This document shows positions 14,049-16,861 of a DNA stretch of 54,408 bases, piece after piece. How positions within the stretch are numbered: position 1 is the first letter of the stretch; every line of letters starts with the position of its first letter. The translations under genes were made by a program, and so were the position numbers. The notes below the pieces were generated by a model. The model saw only the letters and a list, made by a program, of their open reading frames with translations, was not told the origin of the DNA and made no database searches. The stretch comes from Pseudomonadales bacterium (lineage in GTDB: Bacteria > Pseudomonadota > Gammaproteobacteria > Pseudomonadales > Azotimanducaceae): assembly GCA_030749725.1 (NCBI GenBank), contig JASMJM010000025.1, positions 1 through 54,408 on the forward strand, read 5' to 3'.

Positions 14049-15011
14049 GTGAAGATTCTGATTATTGGCATTAACGGATTTCTAGGTCACGCCGTTGCAG
14101 CTCGCTCAACGGCGCAAGGCATGGAGGTCTTCGGATTGTCTCGCTCCAAAACACCCAATCGTCAGGTTAAGGGAACCTACCTTGTTGCGGATCGAACTTC
14201 ATCGAAAGCTATCGGAGAGATAATCAACGTATATAATATCGATGTGGTCATCGATGTCCTGGCAATGAAGCTCCCGGACACTCAAGCGCTCATCTCCGAA
14301 TTGGATGGTCACATCGCGCAATATGTAATGCTCGGCTCTAGTGACGTTTACCGTAACTATGAACTACTACATGGGTTGGCGCAGGGAACGCCGACTAGCA
14401 ATAGTATCGATGAAGATTCAGCATTGAGAACAACTCTTTATACATATCTTAAGGATCGACATAGGGCAGCTGCCGGTTCCAATCAGTATCTTGATGAATA
14501 TGACAAGATTCCAATTGAGGAACTGGTCCGAACTCTTGCTACGGACTGGACCATACTGAGGCTGCCGATGATCTACGGTCCTGGTGATAAACAGCGCCGA
14601 TTCAGCTGGGCCATAGGACACATGGTAAGGAGTGATGAACCGTTGGTGATGCCCCGAGTGTGGGCAGAATGGATCACGACGTATGGCTACGTTGAAAATG
14701 TTGCTGAAGGAATTGCCCTGACAATTGGAAACAGTCGTGCTTTGAAACGAGTGTTCAATATCGGTGAAGTCGCGCCAGTCAACCACTTGGAGTGGAGCAG
14801 GCGGATCGCAGAAGTCTTAGGATGGAATGGCGACATTGAGATCAGCGATGATCCAACCATCGAGTTTGCGCAACGTCTCAGCTCCTTAGATCTGTCGGTG
14901 CAATTCCAGATCGATAGCCGGAGAATTCGGGAACAGCTTGGATTCTATGAGACCGTTACCATTACCGATGGACTTACACGAACAGCTGTGGACGAAAGGG
15001 TACGTGGTTGA
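14049..15011 (+). CDS. NAD-dependent epimerase/dehydratase family protein
   Basis: About 320 residues. The GTG at 14049 gives the canonical opening MKILIIGINGFLGHAV with the GxxGxxG nucleotide motif right at the N-terminus; a TTG at 14034 would add five residues. The rest follows the extended SDR pattern: a V-I-D-V-L segment near residue 70, a serine region YVMLGSSDVYR, and a substrate-binding C-terminal half with YGPGDKQRRFSW and TTYGYVENVAEGIAL. The catalytic Tyr-x-x-x-Lys is not clear: YLDEYDKIPIEE may occupy the place, so activity may differ from classic sugar epimerases. Base composition is somewhat AT-richer than the neighbours. Confidence 0.8.
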   Translation: MKILIIGINGFLGHAVAARSTAQGMEVFGLSRSKTPNRQVKGTYLVADRTSSKAIGEIINVYNIDVVIDVLAMKLPDTQALISELDGHIAQYVMLGSSDVYRNYELLHGLAQGTPTSNSIDEDSALRTTLYTYLKDRHRAAAGSNQYLDEYDKIPIEELVRTLATDWTILRLPMIYGPGDKQRRFSWAIGHMVRSDEPLVMPRVWAEWITTYGYVENVAEGIALTIGNSRALKRVFNIGEVAPVNHLEWSRRIAEVLGWNGDIEISDDPTIEFAQRLSSLDLSVQFQIDSRRIREQLGFYETVTITDGLTRTAVDERVRG

Positions 15012-15105
15012 ACAGCAAGCGCATTCCGGCCGCTTCCTCATCTAATCGCTCTTGAGCGAGGGCGTAGGAATCAGTTGTAGCTATTTGAGGCACAAGGCGT
15101 GAGGC

Positions 15106-15660
15106 TCAATCCGAGCTCACAGCTATTCTCTTTTCCCATTCATCGATCTTAGTGATAAACGCAGCGGGACAGTGGTGTTCCTGCGCTTTTTGTCCGGTTG
15201 CACGTCCCAGTAACTCGGGTATCGACCGCATCTCGCATCCCGGTGTTGCGATAGCTGCTGCGATCGTGAACGAAATGCCCAGGTGACCATAGAAATATGT
15301 GAGCCACATGAATAGTGGTACCCCTAGGATAGGGCTATCCCAATCACCCCCAACGAGGTAACTCACTCCCGCAAGTATCCCAAAAGCAGCGAGTGAAATG
15401 TAGGCGGGCATGCGGCCCCAACTCTTTGAAAAGCCAATATTGACCACGTAGTTGATGATGCAGAGACCGATGGCAAGCATCACAGAGAAATTGGGTATCA
15501 CACTCACCGGGGTGTCGATGAGTTCCTCTCGATAGATAATCACTTGCCACAACGCATATAGGCATAGAACACCCATTCCAAGTCGAACCATACGACCGAT
15601 TGATCCAGGTCGATCCAAGGTGCCGGGCGCCACAAGTTCAAGCGAGTCTGATTGTTTCAT
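15106..15660 (-). CDS. hypothetical inner-membrane protein linked to GDCCVxC gene
   Basis: 184 residues with about four hydrophobic helices (roughly 27-44, 55-75, 82-102 and 110-135) and a soluble C-terminal tail containing PGCEMRSIPELLGR and EHHCPAAFITKIDEWE, whose Cys and His could bind metal. An excellent ribosome binding site (GGAGAGGAGGTGCA) precedes the ATG. It lies 37 bases downstream of the zinc-ribbon gene on the same strand, so it probably belongs to the same small operon. I do not recognise the family with certainty; a transport or accessory role in metal or redox handling is possible but only by context. Confidence 0.75.
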   Translation of the reverse strand: MKQSDSLELVAPGTLDRPGSIGRMVRLGMGVLCLYALWQVIIYREELIDTPVSVIPNFSVMLAIGLCIINYVVNIGFSKSWGRMPAYISLAAFGILAGVSYLVGGDWDSPILGVPLFMWLTYFYGHLGISFTIAAAIATPGCEMRSIPELLGRATGQKAQEHHCPAAFITKIDEWEKRIAVSSD

Positions 15661-15697
15661 TGCACCTCCTCTCCGAGATAGTTCTGCAGTGCCTCGA

Positions 15698-15919
15698 TTA
15701 GCTGCAACATTCCCCTTGTTGGACAGGTGGACAGGCGAGGGTTCCGTATGAGCAAAAGACGCAACAGTCTCCCTTTAGAGGTCTCAGTAGTGATTTGCAG
15801 TTCTCACATTCATAAAACCACTGGCAGGCATCCGTTGGCATAGTCTCAGTCTTGCGATGACCGCACTCTGGACAAGTAATGGTGGATTCCAGGACAGTTG
15901 TGTTAACAGATTCCATCAT
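15698..15919 (-). CDS. GDCCVxC domain small zinc-ribbon-like protein
   Basis: 73 residues with twelve cysteines: CPEC (16-19), C32, CENC (38-41), GDCCVFC (50-56) and a C-terminal CC. The GDCCVxC signature marks a family whose members sometimes carry selenocysteine at one of these positions and are often found near mercury or arsenic resistance genes; here all positions are Cys. It begins with tandem ATGs, the first of which overlaps the stop codon of a tiny upstream ORF as ATGA. Downstream is a membrane protein gene. The cysteine arrangement suggests metal or metalloid binding in the cytoplasm. Confidence 0.85.
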   Translation of the reverse strand: MMESVNTTVLESTITCPECGHRKTETMPTDACQWFYECENCKSLLRPLKGDCCVFCSYGTLACPPVQQGECCS

Positions 15920-15990
15920 GGTTTTCCTTTTGCTTTGACCGCATCAATACAGACCGGACATACAGCGCCGGAAATTTCCACTCTGTGCAT
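15916..15990 (-). CDS. candidate 24-residue leader peptide/small protein with CPVC motif
   Basis: A short frame reading MHRVEISGAVCPVCIDAVK and ending KGKP. It has its own plausible ribosome binding site (AGGAAA, 5 bases before the ATG) and its TGA overlaps the ATG of the GDCCVxC gene as ATGA, the classic arrangement for translational coupling. An in-frame TAG lies three codons upstream of the start, so it is not the tail of a longer protein. The CPVC pair could bind a metal or act as a redox or regulatory sensor. It might instead be a chance frame; conservation would settle it. Confidence 0.4.
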   Translation of the reverse strand: MHRVEISGAVCPVCIDAVKAKGKP

Positions 15991-16039
15991 GATTTCCTAA
16001 ATACAGATGCAAGCCCGAGTATTATTGGGTATCCGGTCG

Positions 16040-16861
16040 TTACCGCTTGGCAACCTTAAATATGGCGGTGTGCCGGAGCCGCATCAGTTCCTCGGCATGT
16101 TCCGACCAGATGGCACCATCGTTGACAATGTAGTGGTGGTCCTTGCGTTCGTATACCTCATGGCAGTAGCCGGTCACCGTCAGGGTTTGTCCTGCATAGG
16201 CGGGAGCCAGATTCTGAATCTGGCTCTTGGCGTGAATTGCGGGCCCGTAATCATACGAGTGGTGCAGCAGATGGGTCATCTGTCCAGCCAACCAGGCTGG
16301 ATGGACCAGCGGCTTTTCTCCGTGGTAACGGGCATTGGAATCGGCCTGCAGCCGGGTACTGAAGTCACTGGCCTCGATGTTGGAAAGAGCTACCGCTTTC
16401 GGACGCAAGTTTCGGTGAACGGGCGCATTGGCGAGACTCAGTTGTGGCTTGGATTTGGGCGGCTGGTCACCAGGCATGAACGTAGGTACGTTTAGATCGC
16501 GAAACCAGGGAGCGGTTCCGAGGCCCAGTGTGCCCAGCAGACAGCGCTGTCCCTCTTCGTTATCCATCTGCAACTCGAACGCTTCTCCTGACGTGTCAAG
16601 AATGCGCACCGTCATCACATCACCCGGATAGGTGGGTCTGCGAAAAGCTACTTCGATCCATCCGTCCTCCAACCAGGTAGTGCCGATCGCTTCCAGTATG
16701 ACCGGTGTCGCCCAACCATAGACATTTACGCCGCCGATCAGGGCCGCTTTGTAACCGTACTCCCTGCCGCCATCAGTTGAATGAATGGGGTTACTGGGAC
16801 GAGGGGCATCCGGATCGTGCATGAATGCGGTAATCTGTCTTGTCACGATTGGTGTCGTCAT
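16040..16861 (-). CDS. MaoC-like hotdog-fold acyl dehydratase
   Basis: 273 residues from the ATG at 16861 (MTTPIVTRQITAFMHD); the open frame runs further upstream into the CoA-transferase gene but that part is not expected to be coding. The pattern is of a double hotdog enoyl-CoA hydratase-like protein: an N-terminal unit with YGYKAALIGGVNVYGWATPVI, and a C-terminal unit with VHPAWLAGQMTHLLHHSY and IQNLAPAYAGQTLTVTGY. The typical MaoC catalytic Asp/His pair is not clear in the N-terminal unit, so a binding or thioesterase-like role is possible. It lies 13 bases after the family III CoA-transferase, so it probably hydrates or dehydrates the CoA thioester made by that pair. Confidence 0.75.
   Translation of the reverse strand: MTTPIVTRQITAFMHDPDAPRPSNPIHSTDGGREYGYKAALIGGVNVYGWATPVILEAIGTTWLEDGWIEVAFRRPTYPGDVMTVRILDTSGEAFELQMDNEEGQRCLLGTLGLGTAPWFRDLNVPTFMPGDQPPKSKPQLSLANAPVHRNLRPKAVALSNIEASDFSTRLQADSNARYHGEKPLVHPAWLAGQMTHLLHHSYDYGPAIHAKSQIQNLAPAYAGQTLTVTGYCHEVYERKDHHYIVNDGAIWSEHAEELMRLRHTAIFKVAKR

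Follow-up and report, generated by a model that had tools for sequence, protein, structure and literature searches.

Organisation of the locus

On the minus strand of a 54,408-nucleotide stretch from a Pseudomonadales bacterium of the Azotimanducaceae (contig JASMJM010000025.1; hereafter the window), we found three consecutive frames: a 24-codon frame with a CPVC motif, a gene of the GDCCVxC family and a gene for a membrane protein (Table 1). All three are present as the first-pass annotation had described them, including the short frame's own ribosome binding site and ATGA overlap and the near-perfect ribosome binding site before the membrane gene. The GDCCVxC gene has a second ATG at 15916, directly after the first, and 37 nt lie between its stop and the start of the membrane gene.

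Upstream of the trio and on the same strand are two CoA-transferase family III genes (Pfam), followed by a frame at 17059-16040 that ends 49 nt before the 24-codon frame. The latter gene has no confident Pfam or NCBIfam match, its Pfam hits being weak throughout (GEMIN8, E 0.058; FAS1-like dehydratase region, E 0.1), and no terminator-like site was found in the 49-nt gap. An Rfam search of 14900-16400 returned no match at E ≤ 1, and we therefore rejected a described RNA leader at the locus.

Table 1. The three frames and their translation signals, in window coordinates
Feature	Position	Strand	Basis
24-codon frame, MHRVEISGAVCPVCIDAVKAKGKP, CPVC; candidate merP relic or chance frame	15916..15990	-	sequence
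AGGA, possible ribosome binding site for the 24-codon frame, 4 nt 5' of ATG	15995..15998	-	sequence
ATGA overlap: TGA of the 24-codon frame / ATG of the GDCCVxC gene	15916..15919	-	sequence
AGGA inside the 24-codon frame, possible ribosome binding site for the GDCCVxC gene	15925..15928	-	sequence
GDCCVxC-family gene, 73 aa	15698..15919	-	NF041374 match
AGGAGGTG, strong possible ribosome binding site for the membrane gene, 2 nt 5' of ATG	15663..15670	-	sequence
Membrane-protein gene, 184 aa	15106..15660	-	synteny in relatives, predicted structure

The GDCCVxC protein

The 73-residue protein matches NF041374, the GDCCVxC domain-containing (seleno)protein family, with 110 bits (E 4.8e-32; cut-off 40). 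Eight cysteines (C16, C19, C38, C41, C52, C53, C56 and C63) are invariant across a 64-member alignment, and the window protein has all of them; it is thus the cysteine form, as the first-pass annotation had stated. The additional claim that the family often has selenocysteine found no echo among the 105 loci that tblastn matched, which include the window's own place twice: none has an internal TGA, and the one internal stop is a TAG at a serine position, in a sample that was mostly retrieved with cysteine-containing patterns and therefore leans to cysteine forms, so that selenocysteine forms could be missed. MerP- and MerT-type selenoproteins are among the proteins listed in PMC2398784 and PMC9312934.

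The weak Pfam matches of the protein hint at zinc ribbons, among them the PaaD zinc ribbon (E 0.0012, below cut-off). For its AlphaFold model (pLDDT 78), Foldseek found nothing at E ≤ 0.001; VIA-align gave no hit with Z ≥ 5, its top score being Z 3.3 for MCM N-terminal domains. The best hit of a PDB sequence search reached only E 0.66. We found no publication that names GDCCVxC or the GDCCVxC domain-containing family, nor did we meet the family in titles or abstract openings of the wider literature on mer operons, MerP peptides and small or selenium proteins.

The membrane protein

No family in Pfam (E ≤ 1), NCBIfam or PHROGs matched the 184-residue membrane protein. Its structure model consists of four long helices at low confidence (pLDDT 63), and a simple hydropathy scan gives three peaks. 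Foldseek returned no match to the model at E ≤ 0.001, a PDB sequence search with the membrane family nothing at E ≤ 1, and a search of the plasmid collection with the relative from locus L160 nothing at E ≤ 0.01.

The protein has matches in 8 of 145 relatives' genomes, the window's own included. Long copies of the gene are present in G003, G007, G048 (twice) and G068, partial matches in G040 (a stretch of 70 residues) and G016 (26 residues); the match in G118, at 25% identity, covers part of a 512-aa frame and was taken as unrelated. Among 369 genomes sampled evenly across the class, the window's own and G388 gave matches. Three cysteines (C33, C142 and C164) are common to all seven aligned long members, that is, the window protein and six long relatives including that of L160. 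Three genomes of genus g8 differ in this gene: G007 has a long copy, G040 (L007) retains residues 109-178, and beside the GDCCVxC gene of G165 (L152) none was seen. Both G040 and G165 keep the order MerT-MerP-GDCCVxC.

In G068 a shorter membrane protein (L111:995-1516, minus strand) overlaps the end of the membrane gene and has a GCE motif in common with it. This shorter protein matches DUF6410 (PF19948) weakly, with 18.4 bits against a cut-off of 25; our literature search found nothing that names DUF6410.

Mer-type neighbourhoods in relatives

The relatives place the two larger genes in a recurrent company. In G388 (L160), merR on the minus strand is followed by merT, merP, GDCCVxC and the membrane gene; Pfam matches back the MerR, MerT and HMA assignments. 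G007, from the window's family, has MerR<>membrane gene-GDCCVxC-MerT-like, its MerT match of 28.2 bits lying below the cut-off of 32.9. The two copies of G048 stand in MerR<>GDCCVxC-MerC-membrane gene (C23, L025) and in MerR<>GDCCVxC, aspartyl-protease-like gene, membrane gene (C18), and G040 has MerT-MerP-GDCCVxC-truncated membrane gene. G003 shows MerR<>membrane gene, and the 3.5 kb read around the G068 membrane gene contain no mer genes. A MerR gene thus lies within about 1.2 kb of five of the six long membrane-gene copies outside the window.

For the GDCCVxC gene we counted neighbours at 80 loci, the best 80 of 570 relatives. A Mer-type match occurs in 55 of these 80, and MerT, MerP or MerC in 48; by family, MerR was found in 46, MerT in 32, MerP in 17 and MerC in 14. 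These profiles are broad, that of MerR spanning the regulator family at large, and MerR is the sole Mer-type match in 7 of the 55 loci. Two frames hit by the MerP profile, of 401 and 752 aa (in L077 and L107), are probably P-type ATPases. The remaining 25 of the 80 loci have no recognised Mer gene nearby; contig ends truncate some of the loci. On plasmids, 348 records match the GDCCVxC protein, and four regions were read: a Roseibium region with MerR, an unnamed small gene and GDCCVxC; a Sphingopyxis region with two helix-turn-helix genes, a hypothetical protein, GDCCVxC and a cation transporter; and regions from Cupriavidus and Methylocella with other neighbours around GDCCVxC. Because of these 25 loci and the two plasmid regions with other neighbours, the family is not confined to mer operons.

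A dyad, CTGTAGnnnCTACAGAT, is present in 18 of 160 loci, several of which are the same place repeated. It lies just upstream of GDCCVxC in L006, L010, L014, L025 and L147; in L015 and L110 it precedes the membrane gene. As judged by eye, the 19 nt that separate a -35-like from a -10-like hexamer in L014, L025 and L147 are taken up by the dyad; spacers of MerR-family promoters are typically 19-20 nt long. The MerR proteins of L160, G007 and G048 C23 remained under every NCBIfam cut-off, and since their scores for MerR, CadR/PbrR and CueR are close, they do not fix the metal.

Four of the mer-type clusters (L006, L010, L015 and L147, from G002, G016, G007 and G147) also contain a gene of about 198-212 codons, possibly for a redox protein, which an in-frame TGA splits at the same place in all four loci (GP[ST]-U-G-[VI]-C-LRGL). 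A GAGGTCTGGCAGACCTC-like hairpin, seen by eye, starts about 13 nt after this TGA. The split gene looks like a selenoprotein gene; it had no match in Pfam (three tested), NCBIfam (one tested) or the Rfam SECIS models.

Mer genes in the window's own genome

The assembly that contains the window is 96.6% complete in 173 contigs, and a mer operon could sit in the missing 3-4%. A MerT search of it came back empty at E ≤ 10, as did a MerC search at E ≤ 0.001. HMA occurs only within one 919-aa frame, with no free-standing MerP found, and the best MerA candidate, on another contig, scored 390.8 bits against a cut-off of 454.45. One protein, likewise encoded on another contig, is 43% identical to a relative's MerR, and the 1.9 kb fetched around it contain no mer genes. 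The mer-type dyad is absent from the window even with up to two mismatches allowed, which rules out a mer-type promoter of this kind before the GDCCVxC-membrane pair. Elsewhere in the genome the dyad has three places, one of them exact; the 3 kb surrounding each gave no match to mer genes.

The 24-codon frame

The frame occupies the position of merP in relatives, and because of this synteny we compared it with MerP. In 20 rows a frame with an HMA-like motif ends at most 40 nt from a GDCCVxC start; 18 of these show an overlap of exactly 4 nt (ATGA or GTGA), and 13 of 15 do so when repeats and identical junctions are counted once by our own reading. The distance from motif to stop is 61-68 residues in those MerPs versus 16 in the window frame. 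Like the window frame, the merP of Azoarcus sp. Aa7 (L090) has a CPVC motif and has KP as its last residues, ahead of the overlap. An origin of the frame as a partial copy of the GDCCVxC protein's own CPxC knuckle was rejected, its score on the GDCCVxC profile ranking 142nd of 4637.

This background of 4637 consists of mechanical 20-40-aa frames of the window and L029-L108. Against it, in a comparison picked after the resemblance had been noticed, the frame ranked second on a profile of the loci's MerP-type matches (8.3 bits) and first on a profile of 13 MerPs (7.5 bits). Free shuffles equalled it on the two profiles in 35 and 25 of 20000 cases, and shuffles that kept the CxxC in 270 and 146 of 20000. 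By best pairwise score it ranked fifth (tied), 8 of 3000 free and 26 of 3000 CxxC-kept shuffles being as good. It aligns without gaps over 18 residues with the MerP-type proteins of L016 and L030.

Pfam HMA was not reported in the frame at E ≤ 10, in a search where HMMER's filters drop most matches above 0.1, but all four 24-residue pieces of true MerPs matched it (E 9.8e-5, 0.0012, 0.017 and 0.18). The frame instead weakly matches zf-Di19 (E 0.0067) and DUF2387 (E 0.061); one of 14 CxxC-kept shuffles drew a Pfam match and 13 drew none. With 24 residues beginning MHRVEISG, it contains neither a signal peptide nor a complete HMA fold, and an in-frame TAG stands upstream of its ATG with two codons between.

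Among 100,000 first-order Markov sequences modelled on the window's own 121-nt upstream region, the frame in that phase reached 24 codons or more in 14.2%, and in 0.45% it contained CxxC as well. The length alone is therefore ordinary, and the CxxC moderately unusual. Codon usage places the frame below 45% of 1128 out-of-frame pieces and above 4.4% of 564 in-frame pieces, a position between the two distributions that favours neither; in bits per codon the GDCCVxC gene scores -0.21 versus 0.02 for the frame, and because that gene itself scores under the frame, the measure is weak for short genes here.

The first-pass annotation had taken the frame for a tiny gene coupled to GDCCVxC and proposed to look for it upstream of other GDCCVxC genes. 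We recognised no counterpart in the genomes searched. In a joined query (E ≤ 0.001), the half that represents the frame matched, of 206 family genomes, the window's own alone; a weak match in G067 (E 5.1e-4) touches the frame's last residues. The frame alone, a short query that would miss a diverged copy, gave a next best match of E 0.128 after its own among 145 relatives (E ≤ 10). CxxC stretches within 180 nt before GDCCVxC were listed for 100 of 105 loci, the other five having no assigned start; apart from L001 and L003, which are the window's own place, none resembles the frame by eye, though these stretches include full merP genes. The frame is also absent before GDCCVxC in G007, G048 and G388, which keep both downstream genes, and in G040, whose membrane gene is truncated. 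This counts against it at the level of the family or wider, as no genus-level relative was found and the gene order before GDCCVxC differs among relatives; the membrane proteins of the same-family genomes compared are 52-60% identical to the window's. The frame as an established gene is thus not supported.

Discussion

Our results suggest that the window's GDCCVxC gene and membrane gene form the tail of a soft-metal operon of mer type, probably for mercury, which has been orphaned in this genome, and we consider this the probable explanation of the locus. The fullest form of such an operon would be that of the relative with merR<>merT-merP-GDCCVxC-membrane gene, of which the window would retain the last two members. 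This tail would stand by itself, preceded on its strand by two CoA-transferase genes and one more gene, with no merR, merT, merP or mer-type operator next to it. Because the relatives place both larger genes in MerR-type clusters, a role in soft-metal handling is indicated for them, with mercury as the likely metal. From the cysteine-rich content, the first-pass annotation had suggested metal or metalloid sensing, binding or transport; the synteny with MerR, MerT, MerP and MerC supports binding or transport for the GDCCVxC and membrane genes, and this does not extend to the tiny frame. In the mechanism we propose, the membrane protein, which has a cysteine in the first predicted helix and two more close to the C-terminus, would carry a soft metal ion bound to thiols through the inner membrane; the GDCCVxC protein, small and rich in cysteines, could take up or buffer the ion in the cytoplasm.

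Some observations speak against an operon tail: the loci without a recognised Mer gene nearby (25 of the best 80 of 570 relatives), the two plasmid regions with other neighbours, the G068 membrane gene without mer genes in the stretch read, the MerR scores that leave the metal undecided, and the lack of a structure match that would indicate transport. The pair could instead serve the upstream CoA-transferase operon and have no part in metal handling, as the common strand, the gap in which no terminator-like site was found and the window free of the mer-type dyad would allow. Such a pairing with CoA-transferase genes occurs, however, in none of the relatives' loci read, and most relatives with both genes put them with mer-type genes, which makes this link very doubtful.

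For the short frame, a merP relic or a chance frame is the likeliest explanation; it would have no separate function, except that it possibly delivers ribosomes to the GDCCVxC start. That it arose by chance in untranslated sequence ahead of GDCCVxC, its CxxC being incidental, comes close to an even prospect: its length is ordinary for that phase, its codon score lies near the out-of-frame mean and no counterpart exists elsewhere in our searches, yet the CxxC lowers the odds considerably, and the frame draws two metal-site Pfam families where nearly all CxxC-kept shuffles draw none. The frame may instead be a merP that decayed after an internal deletion sparing the merP/GDCCVxC junction, an origin to which we give less than even weight. 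Slot, overlap and MerP-profile ranks agree with it, as do the missing free-standing merP and the signs of module decay in the family, where the membrane gene of genus g8 is long, reduced or not seen; intermediates with a longer merP remnant were not found, though, and Pfam HMA does not recognise the frame. The same slot, overlap, profile ranks, rarity of equally good shuffles and gapless alignment could also reflect a translated, miniaturised MerP, a cytoplasmic metal-binding peptide coupled to GDCCVxC that kept half of the HMA fold (strand, CxxC loop and first helix turn) and lost the signal peptide and second half. This is improbable, given that no other genome searched contains the frame, that Pfam HMA misses it and finds all equally long MerP pieces while zf-Di19 and DUF2387 appear weakly in its place, that it ranks only fifth (tied) by pairwise score, with 8 of 3000 free and 26 of 3000 CxxC-kept shuffles as good, that so few residues follow the motif, and that codon usage is uninformative. 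We give little credence to a still wider proposal, in which the frame would be a translated mini-MerP, a cytoplasmic half-HMA peptide that binds metal and is coupled to GDCCVxC, and the membrane protein would belong to an undescribed soft-metal transporter family that replaces MerT/MerP in this lineage.

The tail of a mer-type operon, our preferred reading for the two larger genes, is of interest beyond this locus. The merP-GDCCVxC junction provides a recurring genomic context for the uncharacterised GDCCVxC family, and an unnamed membrane family with three shared cysteines is added to mer-type operons. In addition, the short frame illustrates how a tiny frame can seem gene-like by occupying the slot of a lost or shortened gene.

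Relatives hold both genes inside MerR-MerT-MerP or MerR-MerC clusters, whereas the window has the tail only, with neither merR nor operator beside it, and its membrane protein fits neither the model of MerT nor that of MerC. The short frame resembles MerP in its slot and its 4-nt overlap, and possibly in the surroundings of its CxxC, but differs in being only 24 codons long, without a signal peptide and without a Pfam HMA match. DUF6410 may include the membrane family as a remote branch: the neighbour protein in G068 has the GCE motif and some further residues in common with it, although the window membrane protein itself gives no match to that model. The GDCCVxC protein, while present in the cysteine form and without mer genes beside it in its own genome, agrees with the NF041374 family both in its score over the cut-off and in all eight invariant cysteines.
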